In this document: positions 3,431 through 35,911 of the stretch, piece by piece
How the letters are laid out: every line of letters begins with the position of its first letter
Position numbering within the stretch: the stretch's first letter is position 1
Source of the DNA: a virus
Virus record (IMG/VR): IMGVR_UViG_3300020469_005214
Coordinates: 1-64,000 of that record
DNA length: 64,000 nucleotides
Strand: one strand, 5' to 3'
Position numbers and translations under genes: made by a program
Notes under the pieces: generated by a model
The model's database searches: none
The model's input: only the letters and a program-made list of their open reading frames with translations
What the model was told of the DNA's origin: nothing

Positions 3431-3444
3431 ATACTAGTATTACA
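3431..3444 (-). promoter_or_regulatory. Late-promoter-like motif TGTAATACTAGT
   Basis: Reads TGTAATACTAGTAT on the minus strand, with the first T 14 nt before an ATG at 3430. It fits the TGTAATAATATC family found ahead of structural genes in this window. It would drive the 110-residue gene and the LRR array. Confidence 0.45.
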
Positions 3445-3554
3445 CATTTTTGAGAAATGTAGAAATTAGCAGAGTATATATCAATACTTTCTCGTTTGGG
3501 AACTGTTGTAATTTATTTTTTATCTTAATTATTTTCACAAAATGTCACTTTAAA

Positions 3555-3567
3555 TGTAACATATGTC
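3555..3567 (+). promoter_or_regulatory. Late-promoter-like motif ahead of portal gene
   Basis: TGTAACATATGTC lies directly before the portal ATG; the first T is 13 nt upstream of the start codon. No Shine-Dalgarno sequence is present, so a leaderless transcript is plausible. The rest of 3374-3567 is AT-rich, with one weak TTGACT / TTAAAT pair at about 3387-3415 on the plus strand. Confidence 0.5.
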
Positions 3568-5547
3568 ATGGCAAAAAAAAATTATAAGACGGATAATCTT
3601 TATTTTACAGATAGGAAGAAATATTATGAGCAGCAGGAATCTGCACCAAAGAAATCAATAGGATCTGACTTTTCTAATGAAGATTATGAAAAGATGGTTG
3701 GATTCGCTGGCAGCGAATGGGTAAGCGGAGGTTTAGGACGCAGAGGAACAAACCCTCTAGGAGTTAACACTCAGTTATCGGCTAGGTTTCCGAACCTGAC
3801 GAACGGAGGAAACCTTTATAAAAATAATGGGGGCTATATTACGATTAGCGAGACTGTGTATCTTTGTCAAAAAGCTTGGGAAGAATTTCAGTTATTTAGA
3901 AATACCATCGAAGCTATGGTGGAATTCTCTATGTCTAAAATTAGATTATCATCTCCGAATAGGAGTGCTAAAAATTTTTGCGAGACTTGGTTAAAATCCA
4001 TTAACATAGATGGATTTTCAGAACAGTTTTATAGAGAATTATACAGATCTTGTAATGTTTTTCCTTATGCAATGAAAGGTACTATCAGTGCAAAAGATGT
4101 AAAAGACCTAAAAATGTATGCATCTACTGCAGAAATACCAGTAAAATATACGGTCCTAAATCCCGCTCAAGTGAGTTTATATGGTGGATTAACAACTGAT
4201 AGAAACTTTTACAAAGTTTTAAGTCCTTACGAAATTAAGAGATTGAAAAATCCGCAAACTCAAAGTGAGAAGATCTTATATCAAAAATTAAGCCCAGAAA
4301 CAAAAAAAGCGATTCAAGATAGCTCTGAGCTTTCTTTGACATCTTATATTTATGTTCCTCTAAAAGATGTAAGTTCTGCTTTTTATCAAAAACAAGATTA
4401 CGAATACTTTGCAGCGCCACTTTTTTACGGGGTTTTAGATGATATTGAATTGAAGCTTGAAATGAAAAAGGCTGATAGAAAAGTTTTAAAAACTCTTGAA
4501 AATATGATTCTTAAGGTCACTATGGGAGGTTACAAAATTGACGGTAATGAAGTACCTCCTAATCCAGAGCATTTAGCTTACATGAGAGAACTTTTCAACA
4601 ATGAATCAACTCAAAGAGTTCTTGTTGCAGATTATACTACTGAAGTTGACTATGTTATTCCAGATATTAGTAAAATTGTTGGAACTGAAAAATATGCTCA
4701 GGTAAACGAAGATATTAGAGAAGGATTACAGTCAATTTTTGGCAGTAATGAGAAATTTTCTAATCAAATGACTAAAGTCAGAGTATTTTGCCAAAGACTT
4801 AAAAGGGGTCAGTCTATTTTTAAAGAATGGCTCGAAGGAGAACTTGGAAATGTTTGTAAAGCTATGGGATACACAAAAACTCCAAAAGTAAAACTTTCTT
4901 CTATCAACCTTGAAGATCAAACTTCAATGAACAGAGTTTATACTCGAATGGCAGAACTAGGATTCTTGGTTCCAGACGAACTGAATACAGCAATTGAAGA
5001 TGGTATTCTTCCAGAAAAAGATGAAAGCCTGAAAAATCAAAGAGAATATCGTAAATTCAAAAACGATAGTCTTTATGAGCCGCAAATGAATTACAATCCA
5101 ATAGATGAAGATTTAGGTCCAGCTAGTAAAGATAAAGTAAAGCAAGAGCCAGGAAGACCAGCTGGTACTGGAGTTCCACTTAGTGAACCTAGACAAAGTA
5201 GAGTTGTTGGTGGTATTGGCGGTATCTCTCTAAAGGAGCTTCAATCTTGTCTAATAGAAATGGACAAAATTAAAGACAACGTTGTCAAAAAACTTAAGAG
5301 CAGTTATAAAGTCAAGAAACTTACAGATTCCCAAGTTGATTTTGCTAACTCAATTGCTAAAAAGGTTGTTGAAAATTATGACAAGGCACAATGGGAGAAA
5401 GCTGTTGCTTCTGTGATTAAGAACAAATCAATTGACGAGAATCAAGAGATGCAAGAAGAGATCGATAAAATTTGTGACGATTTCGAATTAGACACCTTTC
5501 TGGGGGCTTTAGTTTGGCATTCTAAAAGAGAAGCACCAAGTAATTAA
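3568..5547 (+). CDS. Portal protein
   Basis: 659 residues, a usual length for large phage portals, which form the dodecameric DNA gate at the capsid vertex. Seen: an N-terminal basic region, then a mixed alpha/beta body with FCETWLKSINIDGFSEQFYREL and VFPYAMKG segments, a long helical stem region around residues 290-320 (LKLEMKKADRKVLKTLENM), and a clip/crown-like part with DYVIPDISKIVGTEKYAQVNEDI, a pattern typical of portals of the gp20/SPP1-like groups. A Gly/Pro-rich linker (about 520-550) precedes a charged C-terminal helical tail. It is the first gene of the head module, immediately ahead of the protease. The ATG is fixed by the motif 13 nt upstream. No RBS is visible. Confidence 0.85.
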   Translation: MAKKNYKTDNLYFTDRKKYYEQQESAPKKSIGSDFSNEDYEKMVGFAGSEWVSGGLGRRGTNPLGVNTQLSARFPNLTNGGNLYKNNGGYITISETVYLCQKAWEEFQLFRNTIEAMVEFSMSKIRLSSPNRSAKNFCETWLKSINIDGFSEQFYRELYRSCNVFPYAMKGTISAKDVKDLKMYASTAEIPVKYTVLNPAQVSLYGGLTTDRNFYKVLSPYEIKRLKNPQTQSEKILYQKLSPETKKAIQDSSELSLTSYIYVPLKDVSSAFYQKQDYEYFAAPLFYGVLDDIELKLEMKKADRKVLKTLENMILKVTMGGYKIDGNEVPPNPEHLAYMRELFNNESTQRVLVADYTTEVDYVIPDISKIVGTEKYAQVNEDIREGLQSIFGSNEKFSNQMTKVRVFCQRLKRGQSIFKEWLEGELGNVCKAMGYTKTPKVKLSSINLEDQTSMNRVYTRMAELGFLVPDELNTAIEDGILPEKDESLKNQREYRKFKNDSLYEPQMNYNPIDEDLGPASKDKVKQEPGRPAGTGVPLSEPRQSRVVGGIGGISLKELQSCLIEMDKIKDNVVKKLKSSYKVKKLTDSQVDFANSIAKKVVENYDKAQWEKAVASVIKNKSIDENQEMQEEIDKICDDFELDTFLGALVWHSKREAPSN

Positions 5548-5569
5548 TTTCACTAAAATAAACAAAAAT

Positions 5570-5582
5570 TGTAATCAAATCT
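5570..5582 (+). promoter_or_regulatory. Late-promoter-like motif
   Basis: TGTAATCAAATCT, first T 13 nt before the ATG of a nine-codon ORF at 5583 and 57 nt before the protease/scaffold gene. It lies in the 79-nt gap after the portal gene. Confidence 0.4.
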
Positions 5583-5612
5583 ATGACCAAATTACAATTT
5601 AGTAATCTTTAG
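5583..5612 (+). other. Possible nine-codon leader ORF
   Basis: ATG at 5583, nine codons (MTKLQFSNL), then TAG at 5610-5612. The stop overlaps the AGGGG Shine-Dalgarno of the next gene (5611-5615), so a ribosome ending here would be well placed to restart at 5627. The ATG is 13 nt from the start of a TGTAAT motif. It may be a coupling device or chance. Confidence 0.3.
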
Positions 5613-5626
5613 GGGAAAAGTTATTA

Positions 5627-7501
5627 ATGAATAAAGATAAAATTAAAGAAGATTATCCATTTTCCACAAAAATAATTGCGGAATTCCAAGTTGTTCATCC
5701 TAAAGAGAAAGATGAGCATTTAGCACTAGCATCTTTAGACTCTCTAAAAGCGTTGCTTGATGTGCCCAAAGAGCAAATAGAAATGAATAAAGATCTCCTT
5801 TACATTTCTGCCGATTTATGGGTAGGAGGAATGGCTAATAAAAATGGACATGCAATAACAACGGAGGATACGATAGCATTAGCTAAGCAAATTCCTCACA
5901 AATATTTAAATCTTGAACACGACGAAAGTGTTGTTGTCGGCTCTCTTTTCTCCTATGGATTTAGAGAGTATGCAAACGAAAGAAACTTAATCGCAGAAGA
6001 AGACATCGAAGATTTAGATAAACCACTGGTTGCTTCTGGTGGAGGTTTCGTTTGGCGTAGTGTTAATCAAGATTTGGCTGAATTGCTCGTAGAAGCTTCT
6101 GACAAAAATTCTTTGAAATATGGTCAAGCATCATTTAGCTGGGAAGTTTATTTTAAAGAGTTCTCAATTATGGAAGGTTCAAAATTTGTAGATCAAGCAG
6201 AAATAATTGATGATGAAGATGAAATAAACAAGCGTATTCCATTCTTAAAAGATACTGGAGGTTCTGGAGAATATGAAGGTAAAGAGATTTATAGATTAGT
6301 CAAAGGTCCTAAACTATTTTTAGGAGCTGGTATAGTAGCTAATCCTGCCGCTGATGTCAAAGGCATATTGACCAGTGAAACAAAAGAAGATGTAGAAAAT
6401 ATAATGGAAGCTAAAGCCGATAGTTCTAAGGTCTCGAAACAAGTGGAGGTCTCCCTACAGAACAAGCTTGATGCTCATAGAGAAAAAGTTGGTTCAGATA
6501 AACGCAAAAAAACTACTCTTGCAAAACTTAAAGTAGTTTACAATCGTGGTATCGGAGCTTATCGCACTAATCCACAATCTGTTAGACCTACTGTTAAGTC
6601 TCCACAGCAATGGGCTCAGGCTAGAGTAAACTCATTTTTATACGTATTAAGAAACCTCAGATTTAGGAGTGGGAAACATGACACCGACCTTCTACCCACT
6701 TCACACCCTATGGCAGGTAAAGATAAAAGGAAGGCAACAATTTCACAATCAAAAAAAATAAATGTAAAGAAATATACAGCTATGAAAATTAAAAATCAAG
6801 AAGATTATAAAACTGTATTGGCTTCTGTTTGCGAAAGCGAAGAAGTTGATCATAAACTCCTTGCCGCTCTTGAAGCAAATTTCGATAAAGTAACTGCTTC
6901 TGCAATTGCCGACGCGATCCGTGATGAGAGTGCCAAGTTCGCTACTGAGAAGAAAGAACTCGAAGAAGCGAAAACAATGGCCGCAGAAGAAAAAGCTACA
7001 ATCGAAGCTGAACTTGCAGAGCTCAAGGAGAAATCCGAAGCTTCTGATAAAGAGTTGGAAGAGATCAAAGCTAAGCTTGTTGCGGAAGAACAAAGCCGCA
7101 TTTTCAGCGAGCGTATGGAAGCACTAGAAAAAGATTATGATCTTGAAGCTGATGACTCTAAAGTTATTGCCAGACAAATCAAAGATCTTGATGAAGGTGG
7201 TTACGATGCTTGGTTAGAGGATTTCAAAGTTTTTGCTAAAGAAAAGTCTAAAGACTACAAAGCACTGAAAGCCGAAGAAATGAAGAAACAAAAAGAAGAA
7301 GAAGCAGAGGCTGCAACAGCTAAAGCTTCAACTGAAGAGGCTGAAGAACAAAAAGAATCTCGTGAAAAGGAAGAGGCTGAAAAGCTTATTGCATCTGCAC
7401 AAGAAGATGTAAAACAAGAAGTAGCATCAACCCAACACGAAGAAAAAGTTTCCCTTACAGATCAGTTCAAAGACTTTGAATTGGAGCTTGCAGGCAAATA
7501 A
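5627..7501 (+). CDS. Prohead protease - DUF5824 - scaffold fusion
   Basis: 624 residues in three parts. Residues about 45-250 look like a phage prohead serine protease: LNLEHDES places a candidate catalytic His at 98, and GQASFSW a candidate Ser near 169-171. Residues about 279-352 match the phage DUF5824 pattern (VYNRGIGAYRTNP, SVRP, QWAQARVNSFL, DTDLLPTSHP). Residues about 386-624 are a Glu/Lys/Ala-rich coiled coil typical of capsid scaffolds, and the C-terminus ends FKDFELELAGK. A strong AGGGGA RBS precedes the ATG. An in-frame Met at 386 could give a separate scaffold, but its upstream sequence is a weak RBS. The gene lies between portal and capsid genes, as expected. The catalytic residues are inferred. 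Confidence 0.8.
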   Translation: MNKDKIKEDYPFSTKIIAEFQVVHPKEKDEHLALASLDSLKALLDVPKEQIEMNKDLLYISADLWVGGMANKNGHAITTEDTIALAKQIPHKYLNLEHDESVVVGSLFSYGFREYANERNLIAEEDIEDLDKPLVASGGGFVWRSVNQDLAELLVEASDKNSLKYGQASFSWEVYFKEFSIMEGSKFVDQAEIIDDEDEINKRIPFLKDTGGSGEYEGKEIYRLVKGPKLFLGAGIVANPAADVKGILTSETKEDVENIMEAKADSSKVSKQVEVSLQNKLDAHREKVGSDKRKKTTLAKLKVVYNRGIGAYRTNPQSVRPTVKSPQQWAQARVNSFLYVLRNLRFRSGKHDTDLLPTSHPMAGKDKRKATISQSKKINVKKYTAMKIKNQEDYKTVLASVCESEEVDHKLLAALEANFDKVTASAIADAIRDESAKFATEKKELEEAKTMAAEEKATIEAELAELKEKSEASDKELEEIKAKLVAEEQSRIFSERMEALEKDYDLEADDSKVIARQIKDLDEGGYDAWLEDFKVFAKEKSKDYKALKAEEMKKQKEEEAEAATAKASTEEAEEQKESREKEEAEKLIASAQEDVKQEVASTQHEEKVSLTDQFKDFELELAGK

Positions 7502-7523
7502 TTTCACATCGCAAAAAAATTAT

Positions 7524-7535
7524 TGTAATAACATC
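7524..7535 (+). promoter_or_regulatory. Late-promoter-like motif ahead of decoration gene
   Basis: TGTAATAACATC, 27 nt before the ATG at 7551. No Shine-Dalgarno follows. It may raise transcription of the two capsid genes. Confidence 0.4.
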
Positions 7536-7550
7536 TAACTAACTAAAATT

Positions 7551-8129
7551 ATGGCATACAAAGATTTAAAACTAAAACCATCACGTAATATTGCTCCCCA
7601 CGACATTCGTGGAAATTTCAGAGCAGAATTTACTGGAGAAGCTGGTGATCTTGTCAAGGTTAAAGCTTTTGACCCTGATAACGAAACTTACTACTCCCAA
7701 GGCAACGCAGTAGGTGCTTCCATTGATGGCGTCTACTCTAATCAATTCCAATCTCCTTGGACAGTCGAAAAAGCTGTTGAAGGTGACCGCAGTAGCGTGG
7801 TACTTGGTATCACACTAGAAGGAACTGCAGTAACTGACAACCACGGAAACAAAATTGACGGTTTCAACCAGCGTTTCGCTGATGAAAACGGCTTTGTTGC
7901 TTCTGGCAAGCCAATCCAAATCGCTACTCGCGGTAACTTCTGGGTTAGCAGTGCTTGCATTAGCGGTACAGCTCTTCCAGGAAAAGCTCTCGCAGTTGGA
8001 CCAACAGCAGGTGGGTTCAAAGTTGTTGACCCAAATCTTGCAGCAACAACTGGTGATTTCATCGTAGGAAAAGTTCTTTCTTCTGCTGGAACCCGTCAAG
8101 GCGACGTTAACATTGAATTAACCCTCTAA
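7551..8129 (+). CDS. Probable capsid decoration protein
   Basis: 192 residues, beta-rich and with no cysteine apart from one near the middle. The sequence runs as short strands with Gly turns (GEAGDLVKVKAFD, KPIQIATRGNFWV, GDFIVGKVLSSAG). PIQIATRG and DFIVGKVL are patterns typical of small decoration/head-fibre-type proteins that bind the capsid surface. It sits directly between the protease/scaffold gene and the major capsid gene, the usual place for a decoration or head-stabilising protein. The codon usage is richer in G and C at third positions than in flanking genes, as in the capsid gene, which suggests high expression. The family assignment rests on position and beta-rich character. Confidence 0.7.
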   Translation: MAYKDLKLKPSRNIAPHDIRGNFRAEFTGEAGDLVKVKAFDPDNETYYSQGNAVGASIDGVYSNQFQSPWTVEKAVEGDRSSVVLGITLEGTAVTDNHGNKIDGFNQRFADENGFVASGKPIQIATRGNFWVSSACISGTALPGKALAVGPTAGGFKVVDPNLAATTGDFIVGKVLSSAGTRQGDVNIELTL

Positions 8130-8150
8130 CCAGAAACGGAGTCACTTAAT

Positions 8151-9302
8151 ATGAAAATTAAATTAAAAGAAAAAACTGAACACATCGAACTCGTCAAAGC
8201 AATGGGGTCTCGTGACAACGAAGCATCTCGTGAAGCAATGAGAGTATTCGCTAATCTTGTCGGTCCTCTTGCTAAGAAAGTACTTGATGAAACAAACGCA
8301 ATCGATGGTTTCTATGACACGCTTTCTGTTGGTGAGTATGAGCCTCGCACTATCCCCCTTGATGACTATCATAACATATCTAATGCAGATTATGTTCGTG
8401 TATCGTTCTCAAGCCGTCCAGGAGATCTTGCTTACAATCAACTTACTGGTGCAGACGACGTCGCTTTCAGCACTGCTTTCATTAGTTCCGCAATTGCGTA
8501 CTATAAGAAGTATCTAAAAGCTGGTCGTATCAACCACGCTGAGAATGGTATCCGCAAAATGATCAATGAAGTTCGCTTCAAGATGAAACGCCAAGGTATC
8601 CAGCCTATCCTAGATTCACTTGCAAATTCGACAACTAACGGTGGCAAACACCTTATCCGTTCGAATACAGCAGGTCAACTTGGTCTTGATGACTTCAATC
8701 GTCTTCAAACAATGGCTGCCCGTATCTTAAGCTCTGGTCTTGGTGATACACCAGCAGGCATCGACAATAGCACTCGTGCAGTCGATACTCTGGTAATGTC
8801 TCCTGAAATGGTGGAAGAGATTCGTGCAATTGCTTATCAGCCAATGAATACTCGCGGTGTACCTGACAGCAGTGAATCAACAGCAGTTGGTGCTCCTGAA
8901 AGCGTTCGTGAAGCAGTATATGCTGCTGGCGGTATTCCTTCCATCTACGGAACTGAAATTATCCAGCTTAACGAAATGGGTATTGGACAAGACTTCAATA
9001 CTATCTTCGATACTCTTGCTGGTTCTACAGTATACCCTGATGCTGGTTTGAAATTCGACGAAGGTAGCTCAACTACTGCGTTTGCTGGTTCGACTGAAGA
9101 GTTCGTTCTAGGTATCTCTCGCAAAGTTGACGTTAATGGCCTTCTCAAGGTTGAGATCGCAGACGGTGAAACTGGTGCAAACTTCAATGTTTCTCCTGAT
9201 GATCAGTTCGTTGCTCGTGAGGGCAAGACTGGTATGTTCGGTGAAGCTGAAGTTGGTTACCTTGCAGTAGAGCCTCGCAATCTGTTCGGTCTTATCGTCT
9301 AA
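8151..9302 (+). CDS. Major capsid protein
   Basis: 383 residues, the expected size for an HK97-fold capsid subunit. Seen: a helical N-terminus, a central region with helices and loops (TLVMSPEMVEEIRAIAYQ), and a C-terminal run GKTGMFGEAEVGYLAVEPR then LFGLIV, a pattern common at the end of phage capsid proteins where the last strand carries EPR. It is preceded by protease/scaffold and decoration genes and followed by a strong terminator. Arg codons are mostly CGT/CGC rather than the AGA that dominates the portal and tail genes, a sign of selection for heavy translation. The start has a weak GGAG upstream (about 8139). Confidence 0.85.
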   Translation: MKIKLKEKTEHIELVKAMGSRDNEASREAMRVFANLVGPLAKKVLDETNAIDGFYDTLSVGEYEPRTIPLDDYHNISNADYVRVSFSSRPGDLAYNQLTGADDVAFSTAFISSAIAYYKKYLKAGRINHAENGIRKMINEVRFKMKRQGIQPILDSLANSTTNGGKHLIRSNTAGQLGLDDFNRLQTMAARILSSGLGDTPAGIDNSTRAVDTLVMSPEMVEEIRAIAYQPMNTRGVPDSSESTAVGAPESVREAVYAAGGIPSIYGTEIIQLNEMGIGQDFNTIFDTLAGSTVYPDAGLKFDEGSSTTAFAGSTEEFVLGISRKVDVNGLLKVEIADGETGANFNVSPDDQFVAREGKTGMFGEAEVGYLAVEPRNLFGLIV

Positions 9303-9323
9303 TCGATATCCAATATATTTACA

Positions 9324-9352
9324 AAAGCCCGCTCTTAGGAGTGGGCTTTTTT
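9324..9352 (+). terminator. Rho-independent terminator after capsid gene
   Basis: The arms AAAGCCCGCTC and GAGTGGGCTTT pair over 11 positions (one G-T) around a TTAG loop and are followed by a T run. It closes the protease-decoration-capsid unit. Confidence 0.9.
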
Positions 9353-9432
9353 ATTGTCTATTCACAAGCAAGAGCGTCAATAAATTTCACAAAAGGGTGT
9401 TTTAACTGTAAAGAGGGGGTGAAAGGTAAATT

Positions 9433-9753
9433 ATGAAAATAAATGGAAGATTAGGAGATAGTGAGCTTAACAAAGCTCTAGGAAATACAACAAAAATTTT
9501 AGATTGCTCTGGAGCAGTAGATTATGCATGTAAGATTGCTAAAATGGACGTAGATTCATTATATAGGCATGGCATGGCTCAATATGGCATAAGACCCAAT
9601 AATCGTATCAAAGGTCGTCCAAGCTTCGAGAAGCGCTGTGTAGACGCCTTCAGAAAAGAAATAGGTCAAAAGATTACTGAGGTTGGACAAAGAAAAAAAC
9701 TGACCAAGAAAAAGCAAGCAGAATTAGAAAAAATCTTAGCTAAAGGTAAATAA
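9433..9753 (+). CDS. Unknown basic protein, head-tail region
   Basis: 106 residues, not assigned. The N-terminal half is small and helical with Cys at about 25 and 33; the C-terminal half is strongly basic (QRKKLTKKKQAELEKILAKGK). An excellent RBS (GAGGGGGTGAAAGG, about 9412-9425) precedes the ATG. It is the first gene after the capsid terminator and 8 nt ahead of the next gene. Its position suggests a small head-completion or DNA-contacting protein, but nothing in the sequence proves it. Confidence 0.6.
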   Translation: MKINGRLGDSELNKALGNTTKILDCSGAVDYACKIAKMDVDSLYRHGMAQYGIRPNNRIKGRPSFEKRCVDAFRKEIGQKITEVGQRKKLTKKKQAELEKILAKGK

Positions 9754-9761
9754 AAAGCTTT

Positions 9762-10235
9762 ATGGCAAAAATAACTTATGTACACGAGGCAAAGGGCTAT
9801 GAGATTGATTTAGACCTTTATGAGTTTGAAGTAGCAACAGACAAAGACTATAATAGCTACTGTGCAGAGTTTGGTTTAGAGACTGAAAAGATTATCGCAG
9901 AAGACAGTCAAGAAAAAATTGACGAGATTTACAGTAAATATAAAGACACTGTAAATATGAGTTACAGCGAGTTAAAAAGATGGTCAGAGAGTCCATGTAG
10001 TAAAATCGCTAGTTTATCTCGTGCACCGATTGAAAGAAATTTAAGATTGCTATCTAAGAAGAAAAGTGAGTGGACAATGAGTGATGTTAAATCTGCTAAC
10101 AGAACAATAAGTTTTGTATCTAGAATGAAAGGTATGGAACAAGGAAAGAAAAAGAAAATTAAAGAAGGTGGGCGAGAAATTGTTTGTCCTTCTAAAAGAG
10201 ATGTTAGCTTAATGAACTGGGCTTTTAAGCCTTAA
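9762..10235 (+). CDS. Unknown protein, head-tail region
   Basis: 157 residues, not recognised. The first half is acidic with Tyr (VHEAKGYEIDLDLYEFE). The second half is basic and helical, with a run GKKKKIKEGG and the ending PSKRDVSLMNWAFKP. The closing NWAFKP type of ending is familiar from small phage proteins but does not indicate a function. It follows the 106-residue gene by 8 nt and probably shares its message. The lower-scoring internal ATGs leave the first Met as the best start. Confidence 0.6.
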   Translation: MAKITYVHEAKGYEIDLDLYEFEVATDKDYNSYCAEFGLETEKIIAEDSQEKIDEIYSKYKDTVNMSYSELKRWSESPCSKIASLSRAPIERNLRLLSKKKSEWTMSDVKSANRTISFVSRMKGMEQGKKKKIKEGGREIVCPSKRDVSLMNWAFKP

Positions 10236-10289
10236 ATTGAAAACATTAAACAACTAATAGTGAGAAGCTTCTCCATGTTTGCCTTTTTG

Positions 10290-10302
10290 TGTAATAATAA
10301 TC
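10290..10302 (+). promoter_or_regulatory. Late-promoter-like motif
   Basis: TGTAATAATAATC directly abuts the ATG at 10303; the first T is 13 nt upstream. No Shine-Dalgarno is present. It helps decide the start of the next gene. Confidence 0.55.
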
Positions 10303-10758
10303 ATGGCAGAACTTCAACCAATTTCAGGCGTAGCCTACGAAATACATCAAGAACTGGACGAACCAACTACTCCCACAACTGGTAGTATTTTTTATTGGTT
10401 AGAATCGAACGTCGGAAAGTTAAATAATAAAATTTCAACATTCTATTGTTACGAGTCTGGTGATTATTCTCCGCAACTTGGAGAAGATGAAAAAGGTATA
10501 TTGAAGGCTTTATATTATTCGTTTTATTATAAAAGCAAAGCTAGGAACGCTTTAGCGACTACCAGCAGTAATAATATTTTGTCTCTAAGAGACGATCAAT
10601 CTTCTGTTACGTTTGTCCAGCCCAAACAGGTAGCAAAAGCCTATAGTGATTTAGCTAAAGAATCGGAAATAGAAGCAGATGGTTTAGCAAATTCTTGGAA
10701 ACATAATAGGAGTGGACCAAGAGATCCAAAAACGAGCTGGACTGGACACTGGCAATAA
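10303..10758 (+). CDS. Probable head-tail connector protein
   Basis: 151 residues starting MAELQPISG. An upstream in-frame TTG at 10279 would add eight residues (MPFCVIII), but these are encoded by the TGTAATAATAATC motif, so the ATG at 10303 is the better start. The protein has an N-terminal mixed region and a helical middle (KGILKALYYSFYYKSKARNAL), then a polar tail ending TSWTGHWQ. It lies third after the capsid gene and overlaps the next gene as TAATG. Size and place fit the small adaptor/connector proteins between portal and tail; no sequence family is certain. Confidence 0.6.
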   Translation: MAELQPISGVAYEIHQELDEPTTPTTGSIFYWLESNVGKLNNKISTFYCYESGDYSPQLGEDEKGILKALYYSFYYKSKARNALATTSSNNILSLRDDQSSVTFVQPKQVAKAYSDLAKESEIEADGLANSWKHNRSGPRDPKTSWTGHWQ

Positions 10759-11213: not shown

Positions 11214-11239
11214 CAAAGTTCTCCAGATACACGGTTTTG

Positions 11240-11252
11240 TGTAATAATATCT
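11240..11252 (+). promoter_or_regulatory. Late-promoter-like motif
   Basis: TGTAATAATATCT abuts the ATG at 11253, with the first T 13 nt upstream and no Shine-Dalgarno. It is one of the two clearest copies of the motif. Confidence 0.55.
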
Positions 11253-12686: not shown

Positions 12687-12708
12687 TTTCTCATTTAATA
12701 AAAAAATT

Positions 12709-12720
12709 TGTAATATAAAA
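12709..12720 (+). promoter_or_regulatory. Late-promoter-like motif
   Basis: TGTAATATAAAA, 38 nt before the tail-tube ATG at 12747. The distance is longer than in the leaderless-like cases, and the leader has no clear Shine-Dalgarno. Confidence 0.35.
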
Positions 12721-13846: not shown

Positions 13847-13877
13847 AAATCCCACTGGAAACGGTGGGATTTTTTTT
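13847..13877 (+). terminator. Rho-independent terminator after tail tube gene
   Basis: AAATCCCACTG and CGGTGGGATTT pair across a GAAA tetraloop, with one T-G pair, followed by seven T residues. It separates the tube gene from the tape measure. Confidence 0.92.
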
Positions 13878-13896
13878 CACTTTGTTTTGTATTTGA

Positions 13897-13908
13897 TGTA
13901 ATAATATC
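13897..13908 (+). promoter_or_regulatory. Late-promoter-like motif ahead of tape measure
   Basis: TGTAATAATATC, 19 nt before the ATG at 13916. It lies after the terminator, so a fresh start of transcription is needed here. A weak ATAGG RBS lies between. Confidence 0.5.
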
Positions 13909-19645: not shown

Positions 19646-19667
19646 TTTCTCAATTTATCTTTTTAGA

Positions 19668-19679
19668 TGTAATATTACC
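19668..19679 (+). promoter_or_regulatory. Late-promoter-like motif
   Basis: TGTAATATTACC, 25 nt before the ATG at 19693. Its 3' end runs into the hairpin that covers the next gene's RBS. Confidence 0.35.
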
Positions 19680-20667: not shown

Positions 20668-21566
20668 TGAATGAAGATTCTATTCTTCGAAGCGGGCTTT
20701 CGGAAATATTAAAAGGTTATTCTTATAGTGTTGAGAATAATTTTTACATAAAACACATGGCTTTGGATGATCATGTGGATTACGAAAGAGTGTATTCTTT
20801 TTTCTACGAGCGATTAAAAAAAAGGGGCGTAGAAGCTTCTGAAGTTTTAATTGAAAGAGCTATTGCTCAGGATTTGTGGTCAGATGAGAAAGATAAAAAA
20901 ATTAAAGATTTGTCTGAATTATGTGAACAACTAACATTAACTATTCAGAAATCACTGGCAGAAGACATGAAGAATCATGCCAAAAAAGAGCTGCAAAATA
21001 ATCAAAAAGAGCATGATAATTTAATGGCACAAAAATATGCAATTACATCAAGCTCAATAGAAAGCATTACCAATAATAGAATGCATGAATATTATATTGT
21101 GAATTCTTTGTATTTGGATAAAGATCTTAATCAAAAAAAATTTAATGAAAAAGATTTTGATGAAATAGAGCCAGAAGAGTTATCTAAAATTAATAAGAGC
21201 TATAATAAGTGCACCGAAAAATTAAACGATTCAAATATTAGAAAAATATCTATCAAAGACTTTTTTCAAAGTTCTTGGAATTTATCAAAAAATCCATATT
21301 ATTACTTTGGAAAACCTATTAGTGATATTACGTATTTTCAAACAAGATTGGCTACAAGTGCGAATATGTTTGCAAATATTTTTAAAAACTATCCAGGTAT
21401 TGAATCTGAAGATCCAGACGAGATAATTGAGTTTGCACAAATGAGGTATGAAGCCCAAAAGAATGAGGGCAAAAATAGAAGTTTTACAGGAGCTGATACT
21501 GAAAAATTAAGAAGAGCTGGCATTAATGTACCTGACAGGTCTGCACAATTCAATAATGCTCGATAA
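20667..21566 (+). CDS. Putative tail assembly partner, unknown family
   Basis: 299 residues, mostly helical and charged, with no membrane segment. Notable pieces: an N-terminal ERVYSFFYERLKKRG region, a coiled coil at about 90-115 (AKKELQNNQKEHDNL), a Tyr-rich middle (PYYYFGKPISDITYF) and a C-terminus with RRAGINVPDRSAQF. Translation is coupled to the preceding gene by TAATG, which suggests that the two act together, perhaps as tail chaperones placed after the tape measure instead of before it. Function is inferred from position only. Confidence 0.5.
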   Translation: MNEDSILRSGLSEILKGYSYSVENNFYIKHMALDDHVDYERVYSFFYERLKKRGVEASEVLIERAIAQDLWSDEKDKKIKDLSELCEQLTLTIQKSLAEDMKNHAKKELQNNQKEHDNLMAQKYAITSSSIESITNNRMHEYYIVNSLYLDKDLNQKKFNEKDFDEIEPEELSKINKSYNKCTEKLNDSNIRKISIKDFFQSSWNLSKNPYYYFGKPISDITYFQTRLATSANMFANIFKNYPGIESEDPDEIIEFAQMRYEAQKNEGKNRSFTGADTEKLRRAGINVPDRSAQFNNAR

Positions 21567-21569
21567 AAG

Positions 21570-21582
21570 TGTAATAAATGTC
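21570..21582 (+). promoter_or_regulatory. Late-promoter-like motif
   Basis: TGTAATAAATGTC begins 4 nt after the previous stop. Its first T is 8 nt from the ATG at 21578 and 17 nt from the ATG at 21587. If it is a promoter, the second ATG is the likely start of the next gene. Confidence 0.35.
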
Positions 21583-27540: not shown

Positions 27541-27541
27541 A

Positions 27542-28447: not shown

Positions 28448-28449
28448 AA

Positions 28450-31400
28450 TTATTTGTCTCCATGTATTGGTATTCTATACCCAGTTAAATTTATTCCCGT
28501 AATTACTAATTCAGCAACATCAGGTTCATTGTTTGTATCACTGTAATCTATTAAATCACTAGGAACGTAATCAATGTATGTATTAAATTGACTTGGGAAA
28601 GTACCCATATTTGTAAAACCTTGATCATAAATAGAAGTTACGGTACCAGCAGGAATATTGTCTCTAAAATTAATGAATTTGAAAAATCTTCCAGTAAATA
28701 ATTCAAATGTACCAGTAAAGGTTTTAATTCCAGTAAATATATTAATTGCACCAGTAATTTCTCCAGTATAATCTACCTGATAGATACCAGTGTTATCAAC
28801 CGTTTCTATAGCTCTACCAGTAAAGAGCCCGTAACCAGTTAATGACTGATGAATATCTTTACCACCAGTAAAAGTATTTGATTGAAATGTAGGTTTTCCA
28901 CCGCTTCCGAAAGAATTAACTTGTATTGAATTGCCAAGTTCTCCTAGTCTATTCGCAAAAATTTGTAATGTGTCGATATCGACTATTGATGATGTAAATC
29001 CTGAATCACCACTATTAATAACATTAGACAACCCAGTTATATCATTAAATAAATTTGGTAGTGCATTGCCTGTACTATTTATAAAACCATTATTTCCAAG
29101 TATTATTCTATCACCTATAACTGGACTGTTGTAATTTAATATTATTTGAGCATTAATATATCCAGTAGGAGTAGAACCAAATACCTCCAGCTCTATTCCT
29201 TCTAATTTTATATTATCAGAGTCTTCAGTTAAAAGTCCATTTTGATTCTGGAGCAACATTTTTCCTGCCAAAAGAACAGATTCAGATCTAAAAAAGTCAA
29301 AACTACCACTTCCATCATTTATAAATCCAGTCTCTGAGCCGCTGATTGTTGCGAAGCTGTTAATTCCGCTTTGTAGTGCCTTAACATTTCCAATACCAGT
29401 AAATCTAGTAGAGCCTTCAAGATCTATAAATACTTGTTCATCAGTTGCTATATCAGACAAATTATTTACTTCATTTACCTCCACTTCAAAATTTCCAAAT
29501 CCAGTAACTAATTCTACAACCGGTATTTCATTAAGTAATTTGCTAGTGCCTGTATCGTAGAATAATCCAGTAATATTTCCAGAAACCACCCCAACCCCAC
29601 TTATAGTGTCAATATAATTGGCGAAAAAATCAGTAGCATAAATTTGCTGTCCATCATGGAAAAACTCTGAATTTATAACTCCAGTTTTACGCTCGCTTAC
29701 AGCCAAGATTCCAGAAGGGCTCGTACCTACATGCATACCAGTTAGACTTCCAGTAACTTGAACTTCTAAATCTCCAGAATAAGTGGCATCGAACAAAGTA
29801 ATGTCTTGCGATCCACTTCGCTCAAATGTATACTCAGTTGGTCCATATAAATTAACTTCGTCAAATATAACTGTTCCACTTTGTGATTCGCAGCCCTCTA
29901 CTCCAGTAATAATACTAAAGCCACTATATAATAATCTATAATATCTATAATCTATTTCGTTATCAAATACAAAGCCAGTTCTAAAACTAATGCTTGGTTC
30001 AACTGCTGAATTTGATTCTGCACTCTCATCTTCATCTATTATATCAGAAAGTGAAGTAATAGAGATGTCGCTAAAAAACAAAGAGGCTGTATCAATAGGA
30101 TAGACTGCAACTTCATCGGTAATTTCGAAAGTAGCTTGTGGCTCTAATGGAGCCGTAAATGATCCCTTAAAATACACGTTGTTTGATGGAAATATGTTTT
30201 GACCTTCAAAGCCTGTAAAAAATCCACTATATGATATGGTTTGCACTTTGGCTTGGTCACGTTCTGTCTCCAACTCTATGGCTCCATCCGTTTCACATTT
30301 TACAAAACCAGTATGTACATAATCTGCATCAGTTGGAACTTTTCCACTATTAAGAGGGTGACCAGCTGGTACCTCTATTTGTTGAAAATCTCTACACCCA
30401 CTACAATCTTGTCCTTGATCTTGAGTGATTTGGAAAATATTGCCAAATGAGTCAACACCACTATCAATAACGATAGTTCTCGTCCTTCTGACTATTTCTC
30501 TATTAGCTAGAGGACATTCAGCCAAAATATCTGGCGTTTCAGGGGGTCCATCTTCTTCCTCTTTTGGTTTTACTATCGTATAACCATTGACGAAACCAAG
30601 TAGAGAACCAGAATAATTCCCACTATATTCATATCGAATAGAGTGCTCATTAAAATCTGACACATCTATTCCCGATGGAAATTCAATTCCAGTAAATGCA
30701 CTGGTGCCAGAATTTAGAAAACTTATACCATTAGATTGTATTGTATTTAAAAATGCTCCATCAGTTCCAGATTGAATTACGTGATCAATTGAATTTATAC
30801 TTATAAAATCGACTCCATTTTTTTCATTGTCAACCCTTAATTCAGAACCTTCTCTGAATTCTATTGGGTCTGTATTGATTTCAAATCCGTCACTTATGAT
30901 TTCATGAGTATCTAGGCTATAATCAAAATCTTTTAACATTAGATTTTTCCAACGCTGACCGTTATCACTACCCTGAAATGCTATTGAAAGTGGCATTGAA
31001 TACTGATATTTGCTACTAGGTACTCCATATGTATTTTCAAACTCAATTTTATAATTGCCCATATCTCCAAAAATAAGAGACTCTATTGTTAAAAAGTTAG
31101 GAGTAAGAGCAGTAGCTTTTAATAATGGTCCATTGTAAAAGTCTCCACTTGTATCTCCTGCAAATTCAGAAATTCCAGTTTTAAACTGCTGCCATATACC
31201 TCTCTTATTTACCCCTAATGAGAAATCATTATAATAACCATTAAGTAAATAAGCTAATTCAACTGCGTTACTAAATGTACTATGACTATTACCAAATCTG
31301 TCATAATAAAAATTATTATCCAAATTATAAATATCAGGAAAGCCAGTTCCATAAGCCTCTAAATACGCACCAGAGTAATCAAAATTGTATGGACTAAACT

Positions 31401-34400
31401 GCAAATAGTCACCAATATTTAATTTATTCAGCGTTATTGATCCACTATAAAGAGCCCCAGAAACTATATTTGATTTAGGGCCATCCTGACCACCACCAGC
31501 ATCACCACCACCACCACCAGCACCGGCAGCATCTGCACCTGGACAACCTGGCGGTGGTTCGCATAAGTTATTATCATCATCATCATCATCAGTATCCTCA
31601 TCTTCTTTTTTACTAAGTTCACTTAATAAATCTAAATTACAAATAAAACCAACGTCTTTCCAGTCTGCTTTTGGCTTATTATTTTCTCCAACAAAAAGTG
31701 GATCAGAAGAAGTAATCGTTTCTTGATATTTAAGGGAAAAACCAACTCCTTGAGCTATATTATATGGGATTCCAGTTGTGTCATATTGAATATATGCCAT
31801 ATCTTGAACAAAGTCTTGCTTTATATCTCTAGTTACAGGAATTAAGCCACTACCACCTGAGTAGAATACGTATGATTCTCCCCAAGGACCGCCACCGTCT
31901 TCAGACAAGTATTCGCTCCGACTTAATTGCGACTGTTCGAAAGAAATAATCTTACCTGAAACACTGGGACTTTCATCTATATATCCTCCTTCTACTTTGC
32001 TAATAAAGCCGTCATTCCAAAATAGTAAAGCCGTCCAAGGAACTAGTCTACTTTTGTTTCCCCAACCATCAAAAACTACTACCTCTAATTTATCTTCAGG
32101 AAAAATTTCGCCATCATATCTCCAAACATATTCTGGACTAGAATTTCCAGTTGTTTCAGAAAGATAAGGCCATGTCATAGTATCAAATATAAAATTATTA
32201 TAAGCAGTGCCAAATCCAAGTATTGAGGAGCCTCTATTAGAGGCATTGCTCAGAAAACCATTACCTTCGGTAGATATATTAAAAATAGGAGGAACAAATG
32301 GTTTTGAAAAAACTCCTACAGACAAACTGTTAGAGTTTTCATCATATTCACTATTATTTGGTAATGGCTTGGCGTTCCAAGCCCTTAATACTCTCTTGTC
32401 ATCAACTACTACCAGCTCTATACTTGAATATACAACAGGGCTACCAAATGCTTCAATTTCATCTATTCTATCTTGATAAGAAACAACAAATTCTCCACGC
32501 CCATGCCAACTACTGGTAACCCTAAATACTTGATTATCATCAGTACTTAAATTTGTTATGTTATAATCAGCACCTGCTGCAGTCGTAATTTTACCGCCTA
32601 CTACGTATACCGAATAAGGGGGCTGATGAGAATACCACATTATATTTCTGGCGGGTGATACAATAATTTCGTCGTTTCGTAGTATTGCAAAATCATCATC
32701 TACAAAATTAGGTTCACCACCTCTTGTAGTTTTTGCTCTAATTTCTAACTGTTTAATATAAAGAGAGCTTGGAGGTCGATAATTTTGTTGTGAATATTCA
32801 GCATCTTCAAGAAATAATTCAGGCAAATAATCATTTAAATCTTGATTATCGATGTCCAATATTGCTTTTATATCAAGATTAGCGAAACCCTTAGTAACTA
32901 CCGTACTAATCAGATTACTGAAATTCGCTGAGTTAACATCACTCATATTTATCCATTGAGCGTTGCATTCGGATACTAAAGAATTTAAAAAGGATTCAAA
33001 ATGAGGTTGTAGTTCTATTGGATCACCAAATTGATCTTTAGTAGTAGTAAAAAAAATAGTTTGGATTTCTTTGGTTGATAAGATCGATAAAGCACTTCCT
33101 TTAATAGACGGACTAGAAGTATCCTGTTCGTCTGTAAACGCACATAAAACAACCTTCCTGTCGTTATAACCATCAAATCCACCAGCATTATCTATATCTA
33201 CAATTGCGTGAGCCAATTCTTCCTTGCCCCCACCAATATTTATGTAATCAGTGATATTATTTAACACGGCTTGGAACTCTTCATAAGAGCTTGGATTAAA
33301 CACCATATCCGTATCTGCATACTCATTTAAAATACCAGCGAAGTAACCTGGGCCGCTATAATAATCATATGAATAAATTGCTGCATTAATTATTCGAAAA
33401 TTAAAAAGTTCAGATGCAGCTATAGCAGCAGAGCAATTTCTTATATTGTCATTCATAGAGCCAGATCTATCAAATAAAAATATGATGTCCAAATCGTCAG
33501 AAATTACCTCTTCTGTGCCTGAATCATCTACAAGTCTTACTTTACTATCGCCCGTCAAATTATTTAAATTAAAGTTACTTAAGTCTGAAATTCCATGATG
33601 ATAATCATGTGCTGGATTTACGAATCCAGTTATAGCATCATCATCTTTGTAATAAATACCAGTATAAGTCATTTCCCCTTGAAAAGTACCACTTATAATC
33701 GCACGACCTGTTCCGTCTTGTAATGTCGTTGTTCTTTCAATATTTGCGTTTGGTGGCAACAAATCTTCAACTCTTTCTTCAGTAATTCCAGAGACTACCT
33801 GATCTCCAGAAATACTTCTACTAAAAAAAGGATCAATATTCATACTGAAAGTATCTATTAAATCTGGCATACCTGTAGGCAATATTATGGCACTTGAAAG
33901 TGAAGTTTCAACTGACACCTCTCCAGTATTTGATAATAAATATGTATGAAAAATATCTCCAGATAACATGCCTGTAGATCCATTAGTATTTGCAAAATAT
34001 ATAGGATCTCCACTTACAAAATTTACATCAAAAAAGTCAAATTCTCCAGTTATTCCAGTATTTAAAGTTGAATCAACATCAAGAAGTCCAGAAGCTAAAT
34101 AAACTTCTCCAGAAACTGATGGAGTTCCAGTTACAGTAACTGATGAAGCAAAAGAAACTACATATCCACTTAAATTAACTGGGGCAAAAACACAAAAATC
34201 ATTAAAATTAACAGACGCTTCTCTCTGTCCGCCATCAACATACGGTTCTCCGCTGTAAGGAACATATTGAATGTCTCCAGTTACTAATTGATCGCCGATA
34301 TTTGATCCAGAAACCTTAATTACATAATTACCAGAAGGTCTGAAATAATTATCAAAAAAGTATTGTTCAAATATATTTTTAAATGAAATATTACCGCTTA

Positions 34401-35628
34401 TTGATAAATCTAAAGTTCCTCTAAATTTATCTTCATAATAAATCCCATAAGTTTTTGCTCTCAATGTCACTGGTTTGAAAAAGGGGATAGTATTTATTAG
34501 AAGACCTCCAGTTATTTCTCCCGTTCTTTCTCCTGAAATGAGTCCTGACCCAATATAAGTGTATAAACTTGTATCAACCTGAAAAGTATCCGCTGGGGCT
34601 AACCATCTTTGTTGAGCACCATCAATCATGTTAATATTTTGAAGGTTAAAGAATTCAGGTATTCTTTTGATTTGATCTACATAAGCATTATCTGAAGGTG
34701 AATAACCAGCAGAAAATGTCGTAATACCTGATAAAGGATTTGAGGCTGCAGTGTTTGTAGATGTATTGTAATAATCGTATACAGGAATTTGCAAAGCCTG
34801 AATTTGATCTATTATATCTTGCTCAAAAACACCTGCGCCGTCTTCACCAAAATCAAAGGTGCTAGTGTCACTGTCTCTTAATAAAAATACTTTCCTATCT
34901 CTACTGCTTTGCCTATTGAGAGCTTGCTGTAACCATTTGAATTTTTTTGTGCCGTTGCTCCCACCCACATTAAGTCCTGTTGCCAAAAAGCCAGTCAAAT
35001 ATGCTCTTCCAGTTTCGGTTTCAGCATCTACAAAAGGATTGTTTCGAAATGCCAGAACTAAAGGAATTATGTTAACTGAACCTCTTAAACCACTAAAAAA
35101 AGTGTTTGCGAAATTAGAAAAACCACCACCGAACGCACTCGTTCCTCTGGTAACCAATACCGTACTTTGACCAGAAAATGTATTTGTAGGAGACTCTCCA
35201 GTTTCTGCATCATATCCTCCAGTTAAGGTTCCTTCTGAAAATCCAGAATATCGGAGACCTCCGACTAAAATAGTAGCCATACTATTGTCAATATCTCCAG
35301 AAAATTCAAGACCAGTCCAAGTATAATAATCATGATTTCTTAAACTTCTATCGAAATCAGTGCGCCAAACGCTATTAATACCAATTTCTTCTTTTCTAAA
35401 TTCTAAACTTTCAGAAGGTGGATCTTCTGGATAAAATTTATTAACAGGATCAATATAATAGCTACCAACGTTAGTTTCTAAATCGTACAAAAGATTACTA
35501 GAAACCCTATTGCCAATATTGAAAAAATCTGGAAGATCAAAGTTTGATAAAGGCAGATTGGTTTCTACATCCAAAATATCTCCAGTAGATAGGTCATATC
35601 TTCCAGTTGATGTATAATAATCTGACAT
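28450..35628 (-). CDS. Giant tail protein with von Willebrand A domain
   Basis: 2,392 residues. A vWA domain spans about 710-930: LDIIFLFDRSGSMND has the MIDAS pattern DxSGS at residue 720, followed by a conserved-looking GGKEELAHAIVDID and CAFTDEQD strand. vWA domains bind proteins or glycans through a metal ion. The rest is beta-rich, with many short strands ending in SG/TG (GYDAETGESP, TGEVSVETS) and a disordered Asp/Gly linker at about 1336-1385. A segment near 2120 (LLQNQNGLLTEDSDNIKLE) matches C-termini of two other proteins. A discoidin-like stretch (AFQGSDNGQRWKNL) lies near 1545-1560. Likely role: tail fibre or tip adhesin. Confidence 0.85.
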   Translation of the reverse strand: MSDYYTSTGRYDLSTGDILDVETNLPLSNFDLPDFFNIGNRVSSNLLYDLETNVGSYYIDPVNKFYPEDPPSESLEFRKEEIGINSVWRTDFDRSLRNHDYYTWTGLEFSGDIDNSMATILVGGLRYSGFSEGTLTGGYDAETGESPTNTFSGQSTVLVTRGTSAFGGGFSNFANTFFSGLRGSVNIIPLVLAFRNNPFVDAETETGRAYLTGFLATGLNVGGSNGTKKFKWLQQALNRQSSRDRKVFLLRDSDTSTFDFGEDGAGVFEQDIIDQIQALQIPVYDYYNTSTNTAASNPLSGITTFSAGYSPSDNAYVDQIKRIPEFFNLQNINMIDGAQQRWLAPADTFQVDTSLYTYIGSGLISGERTGEITGGLLINTIPFFKPVTLRAKTYGIYYEDKFRGTLDLSISGNISFKNIFEQYFFDNYFRPSGNYVIKVSGSNIGDQLVTGDIQYVPYSGEPYVDGGQREASVNFNDFCVFAPVNLSGYVVSFASSVTVTGTPSVSGEVYLASGLLDVDSTLNTGITGEFDFFDVNFVSGDPIYFANTNGSTGMLSGDIFHTYLLSNTGEVSVETSLSSAIILPTGMPDLIDTFSMNIDPFFSRSISGDQVVSGITEERVEDLLPPNANIERTTTLQDGTGRAIISGTFQGEMTYTGIYYKDDDAITGFVNPAHDYHHGISDLSNFNLNNLTGDSKVRLVDDSGTEEVISDDLDIIFLFDRSGSMNDNIRNCSAAIAASELFNFRIINAAIYSYDYYSGPGYFAGILNEYADTDMVFNPSSYEEFQAVLNNITDYINIGGGKEELAHAIVDIDNAGGFDGYNDRKVVLCAFTDEQDTSSPSIKGSALSILSTKEIQTIFFTTTKDQFGDPIELQPHFESFLNSLVSECNAQWINMSDVNSANFSNLISTVVTKGFANLDIKAILDIDNQDLNDYLPELFLEDAEYSQQNYRPPSSLYIKQLEIRAKTTRGGEPNFVDDDFAILRNDEIIVSPARNIMWYSHQPPYSVYVVGGKITTAAGADYNITNLSTDDNQVFRVTSSWHGRGEFVVSYQDRIDEIEAFGSPVVYSSIELVVVDDKRVLRAWNAKPLPNNSEYDENSNSLSVGVFSKPFVPPIFNISTEGNGFLSNASNRGSSILGFGTAYNNFIFDTMTWPYLSETTGNSSPEYVWRYDGEIFPEDKLEVVVFDGWGNKSRLVPWTALLFWNDGFISKVEGGYIDESPSVSGKIISFEQSQLSRSEYLSEDGGGPWGESYVFYSGGSGLIPVTRDIKQDFVQDMAYIQYDTTGIPYNIAQGVGFSLKYQETITSSDPLFVGENNKPKADWKDVGFICNLDLLSELSKKEDEDTDDDDDDNNLCEPPPGCPGADAAGAGGGGGDAGGGQDGPKSNIVSGALYSGSITLNKLNIGDYLQFSPYNFDYSGAYLEAYGTGFPDIYNLDNNFYYDRFGNSHSTFSNAVELAYLLNGYYNDFSLGVNKRGIWQQFKTGISEFAGDTSGDFYNGPLLKATALTPNFLTIESLIFGDMGNYKIEFENTYGVPSSKYQYSMPLSIAFQGSDNGQRWKNLMLKDFDYSLDTHEIISDGFEINTDPIEFREGSELRVDNEKNGVDFISINSIDHVIQSGTDGAFLNTIQSNGISFLNSGTSAFTGIEFPSGIDVSDFNEHSIRYEYSGNYSGSLLGFVNGYTIVKPKEEEDGPPETPDILAECPLANREIVRRTRTIVIDSGVDSFGNIFQITQDQGQDCSGCRDFQQIEVPAGHPLNSGKVPTDADYVHTGFVKCETDGAIELETERDQAKVQTISYSGFFTGFEGQNIFPSNNVYFKGSFTAPLEPQATFEITDEVAVYPIDTASLFFSDISITSLSDIIDEDESAESNSAVEPSISFRTGFVFDNEIDYRYYRLLYSGFSIITGVEGCESQSGTVIFDEVNLYGPTEYTFERSGSQDITLFDATYSGDLEVQVTGSLTGMHVGTSPSGILAVSERKTGVINSEFFHDGQQIYATDFFANYIDTISGVGVVSGNITGLFYDTGTSKLLNEIPVVELVTGFGNFEVEVNEVNNLSDIATDEQVFIDLEGSTRFTGIGNVKALQSGINSFATISGSETGFINDGSGSFDFFRSESVLLAGKMLLQNQNGLLTEDSDNIKLEGIELEVFGSTPTGYINAQIILNYNSPVIGDRIILGNNGFINSTGNALPNLFNDITGLSNVINSGDSGFTSSIVDIDTLQIFANRLGELGNSIQVNSFGSGGKPTFQSNTFTGGKDIHQSLTGYGLFTGRAIETVDNTGIYQVDYTGEITGAINIFTGIKTFTGTFELFTGRFFKFINFRDNIPAGTVTSIYDQGFTNMGTFPSQFNTYIDYVPSDLIDYSDTNNEPDVAELVITGINLTGYRIPIHGDK

Positions 35629-35841
35629 TTAAATATGTTGTAATATATTGTTTTTATATCGCTTCTGAATTGCATGTTTTCTGCAACTAGAGCAACCACC
35701 CTGAATACCTAATTCTTTAATGTATTGTTTATGAAGATCTTTGAACTTTTCTGGTAATTCTCCTTCTTTAAGTCCAAAAAAAATATTTACAATTTCATTA
35801 ACATCTGTTTGCACCCCTTTATCCCTAATAATCCTTCTCAT
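35629..35841 (-). CDS. Small CxxC protein preceding giant tail gene
   Basis: 70 residues. The C-terminal half contains GGCSSCRKHAIQKRYKNN, a CxxC pair with basic residues as seen in small phage proteins that may bind zinc or DNA. It begins the minus-strand block, and a TGTAATATTCCC motif sits 14 nt ahead of its ATG. Its stop is adjacent to the start of the 2,392-residue gene. Possible roles are tail assembly or regulation; nothing decides between them. Confidence 0.6.
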   Translation of the reverse strand: MRRIIRDKGVQTDVNEIVNIFFGLKEGELPEKFKDLHKQYIKELGIQGGCSSCRKHAIQKRYKNNILQHI

Positions 35842-35843
35842 AA

Positions 35844-35855
35844 GGGAATATTACA
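35844..35855 (-). promoter_or_regulatory. Late-promoter-like motif, minus strand
   Basis: TGTAATATTCCC on the minus strand, first T at 35855, 14 nt before the ATG at 35841. It shows the same spacing as the plus-strand copies and marks the start of the minus-strand tail block. Confidence 0.5.
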
Positions 35856-35899
35856 GTTTTTTTAACGAAAAGAGAAATTTCTTAACCATAGATAAAATG

Positions 35900-35911
35900 T
35901 GTAATAATGTC
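35900..35911 (+). promoter_or_regulatory. Late-promoter-like motif
   Basis: TGTAATAATGTC, first T 14 nt before the ATG at 35914, with no Shine-Dalgarno. It forms a divergent arrangement with the minus-strand copy at 35844-35855. Confidence 0.5.

Follow-up and report, generated by a model that had tools for sequence, protein, structure and literature searches.

Ahead of its late-type genes this uncultured phage carries a motif that is near certainly a promoter element; it forms the -10 part of TTTC[A/T]C-N16-TGTAATA, a promoter type specific to the phage. Two boxes at a fixed spacing, conserved in relatives and set in a recurrent geometry to ATG codons, are found in a genome that also carries genes for sigma-like proteins. 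The best overall explanation, and in our judgement a likely one, is that the host RNA polymerase (RNAP) together with a phage ECF-like sigma factor reads these two-box promoters, and that the resulting messages are leaderless or have short leaders. Sequence alone yields a transcription programme for an uncultured-phage lineage: it separates two classes of promoter, points to a candidate for the late sigma and fixes gene starts exactly. The promoter map also brought to light a GTG-start gene that had been missed, as well as two gene stubs. If the explanation is true, promoter-proximal genes in this phage lineage, whether early or late, would as a rule be initiated without a leader, which would make it a natural system in which to study translation without Shine-Dalgarno (SD) sequences in phages and the relation between -10-only and two-box promoters.

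The window, the whole stretch of 64,000 nucleotides, makes up the beginning of a virus record that is 141,669 bp long and has an A+T content of 65%. Genes for a tape-measure protein, a terminase, a helicase, a DNA polymerase III-type polymerase and a ribonucleotide reductase identify the record as a tailed phage; no named relative was found among phage collections queried with the giant protein and both sigma candidates. A simple codon-based caller placed 159 genes across the whole record. Throughout, d is the distance in nucleotides from the first T of TGTAAT to the start codon.

Late-type promoters in the window

The sites in the window are as follows; the label 'late' is taken from gene content only.

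3433..3466, minus strand: late-type promoter, -10 element TGTAATACTAGT (3444-3433), upstream TTTCTA; ATG 3430, d = 14
3533..3566, plus strand: late-type promoter, TTTCAC-N16-TGTAACATATGT; ATG 3568, d = 13
5548..5581, plus strand: late-type promoter, TTTCAC-N16-TGTAATCAAATC; ATG 5583, d = 13 (gene stub), then gene 5627
7502..7535, plus strand: late-type promoter, TTTCAC-N16-TGTAATAACATC; ATG 7551, d = 27, short leader
9385..9418, plus strand: late-type promoter, TTTCAC-N16-TGTAAAGAGGGG; ATG 9433, d = 26, short leader, SD-like GGGGGTGAAAGG
10268..10301, plus strand: late-type promoter, CTTCTC-N16-TGTAATAATAAT; ATG 10303, d = 13
11218..11251, plus strand: late-type promoter, GTTCTC-N16-TGTAATAATATC; ATG 11253, d = 13
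12687..12720, plus strand: late-type promoter, TTTCTC-N16-TGTAATATAAAA; ATG 12747, d = 38
13875..13908, plus strand: late-type promoter, TTTCAC-N16-TGTAATAATATC; ATG 13916 (tape measure), d = 19
19646..19679, plus strand: late-type promoter, TTTCTC-N16-TGTAATATTACC; ATG 19693, d = 25
21548..21581, plus strand: weak late-type site, ATTCAA-N16-TGTAATAAATGT, poor upstream box; ATG 21587, d = 17
35844..35877, minus strand: late-type promoter, TTTCTC-N16-TGTAATATTCCC; ATG 35841, d = 14
35878..35911, plus strand: divergent late-type promoter, TTTCTT-N16-TGTAATAATGTC; ATG 35914, d = 14

The original prediction had placed the motif 13 or 14 nt before an ATG in seven cases, and all seven are correct (minus 3430, minus 35841 and 35914 at 14 nt; 3568, 5583, 10303 and 11253 at 13 nt), as are the farther copies that it listed before 7551, 12747, 13916, 19693 and 21587 (d = 27, 38, 19, 25 and 17); the farther copy assigned to 5627 is the 5583 copy, and its placement is likewise right. 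Gene 9433, which had been counted as free of the motif, carries a late-type copy at d = 26. About one third of the late-type sites lie at a longer spacing that corresponds to a short leader (7551, 9433, 12747, 13916, 19693).

When 21 sites are aligned on TGTAAT, 15 of them show an upstream TTTC[A/T]C box, within one mismatch, that is separated from the motif by a spacer of exactly 16 bp (about 0.3 expected), and at most 2 sites have it at any other spacer; the 9433 site, set in register, is a sixteenth with this box. Such a second box at rigid spacing defines a two-box promoter. The original prediction had drawn an analogy to the -10-only late promoters of T4, which does not fit a box that is fixed in its spacing and conserved like the -10 block. 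Late-type sites that do not have a good upstream box occur in this phage as well (120709, 68624). Besides this box and the 9433 copy, the original prediction had overlooked a GTG-start late-type site at 93056 and the +1 geometry of the early promoters, both described below. The divergent promoters of 35841 and 35914 adjoin at 35872-35883, where their -35 boxes meet in the palindromic sequence GAGAAATTTCTT, an arrangement that is kept in relatives.

Enrichment at gene starts

An untrained positional scan of the 141,669-bp record for 5- and 6-mers at a preferred distance from starts ranked TGTAAT at d = 13-14 first among about 8,000 6-mers (10 occurrences against 0.16 expected, Poisson 2e-15). 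The other leading signal was CTTGAC 35-36 nt before starts (8 against 0.11 expected), and these two are the top untrained positional signals of the genome. In a held-out test, a matrix built from the window sites of the original prediction was run on the 78 kb outside the window; in this unseen region, 64001-141669, 8 matches fall precisely 13-14 nt before a start, where 0.18 were expected, and the starts include 68147, 72226, 78282, 83912, 120709 and 128588. The enrichment at starts beyond chance that had been claimed from the window is thus borne out both by the unsupervised k-mer test and by the held-out matrix test.

Conservation in relatives

Among 11 ortholog promoter pairs the -35 hexamer is 98% and the -10 block 100% identical, whereas spacer identity is 69% overall and 36-64% at the centre. 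The comparison covered the sites before 3568, 5583, 7551, 10303, 11253, 12747, 13916, 35841 and 35914. The minus-strand promoter at 3433..3466 is kept in two relatives (L016 and L017), each with an ORF from the same ATG; in L017 this ATG opens a 25-codon ORF with synonymous changes and an unchanged distance to the motif. The ATG at 5583 likewise stands at the same distance from the motif in L016 and L018, where it opens a gene of about 135 aa. Since both ATGs open longer ORFs in relatives, those at 13-14 nt are real starts. In the window itself, the 9-codon ORF at 5583, in the stretch 5570-5627, is a stub, the rest of the gene having been lost here and being intact in L016 and L018. On the minus strand, ahead of the minus-strand gene 3373, the stretch 3392-3430 holds a 12-codon ORF, MADLQDLIKNRV, which a short deletion has cut, given the 25-codon version in relatives.

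A genome search for both boxes led to a site at 93043, and 13 nt on from it stands a GTG codon, at 93056. This codon opens the ORF of a 144-aa SprT-like metallopeptidase (L004:9056-9490, record 93056-93490) that the gene caller had missed and that was found only through its promoter.

Early promoters and the predicted leaderless layout

The second class of promoters resembles that of the host, and three examples lie near the end of the window.

62161..62189, minus strand: early-type promoter, TTGACA-N17-TATATA; ATG 62152, +1 geometry
62207..62235, plus strand: early-type promoter, TTGACA-N17-TATATT; ATG 62243, +1 geometry
62925..62953, plus strand: early-type promoter, TTGACT-N17-TATTAT; ATG 62962, +1 geometry

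In these promoters TTGAC stands 34-37 nt and a TATAAT-like box 12-14 nt before the ATG; with the A of the ATG counted as +1, these are the standard places of the -35 and -10 elements. A TA-like box about 12 bp before the start is regarded as marking a gene as leaderless (PMC3160421). A -10-like box at this distance is found in both classes, with d = 13-14 in the late one and the -35 element 34-37 nt upstream in the early one. Leaderlessness had been put forward as a trait of late messages; since the early genes share the +1 geometry, the layout appears to be general and no late speciality. The placement of the promoter elements implies leaderless messages, as had been proposed, and argues strongly that the start codon lies at or next to +1. 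In phiEco32 the motif tAATGTATAtA is found 6-8 nt before the start (PMC4281155), and by that spacing +1 here could fall 1-3 nt inside the ATG.

Sigma factor candidates and the polymerase

The prime candidate for a sigma factor is a protein of 231 aa encoded outside the window, at 121936-122631 of the record (L005:17936-18631). It matches Pfam Sigma70_r2 at 25.6 bits (cut-off 24; orthologs 27.8 and 25.3). Its matches among solved structures are weak and mostly ECF sigmas, the best at E 0.018 by sequence, and Foldseek likewise returns mostly ECF sigmas (best E 2.5e-3 by fold) for a predicted structure of low confidence (pLDDT 65.6). The predicted helical C-terminus beyond region 2 aligns along an ECF sigma; region 4 has no Pfam match. 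Only two genes separate it from the large terminase downstream, and its position ahead of the terminase is kept in distant phages. Between its sigma-like parts the protein has conserved cysteines, possibly a zinc knuckle.

A second candidate is encoded in the window.

61148..61687, minus strand: weakly sigma-like ORF of 179 aa, in an early-type operon

The 61148 protein matches PHROG 1740 at E=0.028 and is 25% identical to a clear ECF sigma in G005, a 164-kb distant relative; it has no significant Pfam sigma match, and its predicted structure is poor (pLDDT 49).

It is probable that the late promoters are read by the host polymerase with a phage sigma, for which the 121936 protein is the prime candidate. 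The reading in which a phage polymerase serves these promoters was rejected, as a search for a multisubunit RNAP gave no Rpb1 or Rpb2 match, with controls found in 14 of 14 genomes, although very diverged phiKZ-type subunits could escape the models; a search for a T7-type polymerase gave no match, but its control was likewise unmatched. Distant phages with a sigma of the 121936 family lack the TTTC[A/T]C box, so that this sigma need not read it. Alternatively, the 61148 protein or an activator could read that box.

The motif in distant phages

Most of the distant phages were fetched by a protein search with the 121936 candidate, through homologs of about 30-37% identity, and the link between sigma and motif is therefore one of co-occurrence in phages mostly retrieved through the sigma itself. 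Four further contigs, fetched from genome bins by the terminase alone, carry both a 34-38% identical sigma homolog and the motif. Across 549 ORFs of distant phages, GTGTA precedes the first ATG by 13 nt in 17 cases and by 14 nt in 11, and at any other distance in at most 5. None of these GTGTA sites has an upstream TTTC[A/T]C box, which is confined to the window's clade. In G005 the GTGTA and TTGAC positions recur in an unsupervised scan; an AAACA signal 27-28 nt before its starts looked like A-rich noise and was set aside.

A scan of all viral contigs for TTTCWC-N15-GTGTAATA-N6-ATG gave 9 matches, most of them attributable to chance and none accompanied by the sigma; this pattern was too restrictive, because no site of this phage fits it exactly. 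The terminase did not point to a host, as it led to four unrelated bins including Flavobacteriaceae, Halobacteriovorax and Verrucomicrobiales, and a count of leaderless promoters in the four bins gave no clear winner.

We tentatively suggest, as an idea with slightly less than an even chance of being right, that these contigs represent a diverse, undescribed lineage of tailed phages. In it an ECF-like sigma with a cysteine insert would read a late promoter with a TGTA core and with +1 at the start codon, and late (and early) messages would be leaderless as a rule. In one clade the -10-only promoter would be paired with a -35 box at rigid 16-bp spacing, and the lineage would span the step from a T4-like to a two-box promoter.

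Proposed mechanism and alternatives

From the promoters, their geometry and the gene content we infer the transcription start, the timing and the choice of the reading sigma. Host RNA polymerase carrying a phage ECF-like sigma, with the 121936 protein as prime candidate, would read TTTC[A/T]C-N16-TGTAATA. Some 15 genes have their start codon 13-14 nt from the first T of TGTAAT, at the expected place of +1, and their transcripts would therefore begin at the start codon or within 1-2 nt of it and be leaderless; the remaining late-type genes would have leaders of roughly 5-25 nt. Early genes would be transcribed from TTGAC-N17-TATAAT promoters of a host-like kind, whose +1 geometry is the same. 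The late switch would thus be marked by the promoter sequence, not by the leader.

That the motif is a promoter element, as the original prediction proposed, is near certain. The 65% A+T genome does offer many AT-rich matches to the eye (222 at three mismatches in the window), but the held-out, unsupervised and comparative tests are all so far beyond chance that this negligible possibility is already refuted. A signal in the mRNA that binds the ribosome or marks the start would account for the fixed 13-14 nt to the ATG in a genome that has no overall SD enrichment; yet the motif is found at none of the 73 starts that follow a preceding gene at a distance of under 30 nt, against 12 of 85 other starts (Fisher 5e-4), and an element missing from tightly packed operon-internal starts behaves as a promoter, unlike a ribosome signal. 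The motif is moreover linked to an upstream second box at a fixed spacing of 16 bp, some sites stand 17-38 nt from starts, and in early genes a textbook sigma-70 promoter takes its place at the same geometry. The translational reading was dropped on account of the operon-internal starts and the fixed upstream box, and we regard it as very improbable. A contrast between motif genes and genes with SD sequences, part of the original prediction, fails because SD-like matches are at background across the genome (13.3% against 11.8% in shuffled sequence; by class, 1 of 12 late, 0 of 16 early and 14 of 70 operon-internal starts).

For the factor that reads the promoter there are two rival readings. 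The two-box form could be read by the 61148 protein, made early, or by an alternative host sigma, leaving the 121936 protein to the -10-only sites. An early TTGACA promoter does precede the operon of the 61148 gene, the ECF homolog in G005 sits in a similarly early-driven operon, the restriction of the TTTC[A/T]C box to one clade would suit this division of labour, and 120709 and 68624 would provide the -10-only sites; but the protein has neither a significant Pfam sigma match nor a good model, no TTTC[A/T]C class is visible in G005 alongside its ECF relative, and a host sigma is unable to explain why motif and phage sigma are conserved together across diverse contigs. We therefore hold this reading to be unlikely, if worth keeping in mind. 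The likeness of gp55 to sigma is confined to domain 2, and a T4-type late promoter, a -10-only element served by a gp55-like factor, a co-activator and a sliding clamp, comes to mind for the distant relatives, in which GTGTAATA precedes the ATG by 13-14 nt and nothing upstream is conserved, as in T4 (PMC2988020). This phage, however, has a second box at a rigid 16-bp spacing that is conserved in relatives, and in the 121936 protein region 2 is followed by a C-terminal part, predicted to be helical, whose alignment runs along an ECF sigma, which makes the T4-type reading distinctly improbable. An ECF-like phage sigma on two-box promoters remains the preferred explanation.

Comparison with known systems

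The closest parallel is the Kuravirus group (phiEco32, SU10 and 7-11), in which sigma-36 serves middle and late promoters with the motif quoted above (PMC4281155, PMC4331800). In both systems an ECF-type phage sigma, here a candidate, acts or would act on the host polymerase, early genes have promoters of the host sigma-70 type, and this phage likewise encodes a sigma-like protein and has a recurrent non-host promoter motif before structural genes. A TGTATA-like -10 element is a further common feature, in the form of TGTAATA and TGTATAATA in the family described here. The group's motif is reported without a -35 part, in contrast to TTTC[A/T]C-N16 in this phage, and those phiEco32 motif copies that were checked stand far ahead of the gene that follows, out of the +1 geometry seen here. 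The sigma is also not recognisably homologous to phiEco32 gp36 (hhalign probability 0.3%, 11 columns); profile comparison found no homology for either candidate, and 'works like' is for that reason better supported than 'member of'.

T4 late promoters consist of TATAAATA, read with gp55, gp33 and gp45, without a -35 sequence (PMC2988020). T4 resembles this phage in having an AT-rich element at the -10 position of late-type genes, and the distant relatives, too, have no -35 element; but TATAAATA is absent at -10 here, where the core is TGTAATA or GTGTA, the window's clade has a -35 box, and the candidate sigma extends past region 2. We know of no leaderless layout in T4.

Bacterial ECF promoters hold a spacing of 16-17 bp, as in the Bacillus subtilis SigW promoter TGAAAC-N16,17-CGTA (PMC2375139), and share with this phage two boxes, the rigid 16-17 bp spacing and a -10 of the [C/T]GTA type, although the -35 sequence is different. 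The TA-led leaderless genes of Deinococcus-Thermus and Actinobacteria (PMC3160421, PMC12340547) also have a -10 box directly before the start codon; here, however, the layout occurs in a low-GC phage and together with a second, phage-specific promoter class. Late promoters of the phiKZ family (TATG with +1 at the G; AACA-6N-TA/G in AR9; PMC5312081) are likewise short phage-specific elements, but they are read by a phage multisubunit polymerase, and none was found in this phage.

Further features of the record

A 70-nt Rfam match to tmRNA at 106032-106101 of the record (L005:2032-2101) spans both ends of the model, while ARAGORN reports nothing there. Behind the late-type promoter of 83912, record 83912-84265 encodes a small lipoprotein-like protein with signal-peptidase-like motifs (Pfam S26 at E=0.04 only). 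The minus-strand gene 28450-35628 encodes a protein of 2392 aa that has no Pfam match and is about 60% identical in relatives. Two giant proteins of 1500 and 1466 aa, encoded at 41625-50581, consist largely of BspA-type leucine-rich repeats (LRR_5), and a further LRR_5 protein is encoded elsewhere in the record.
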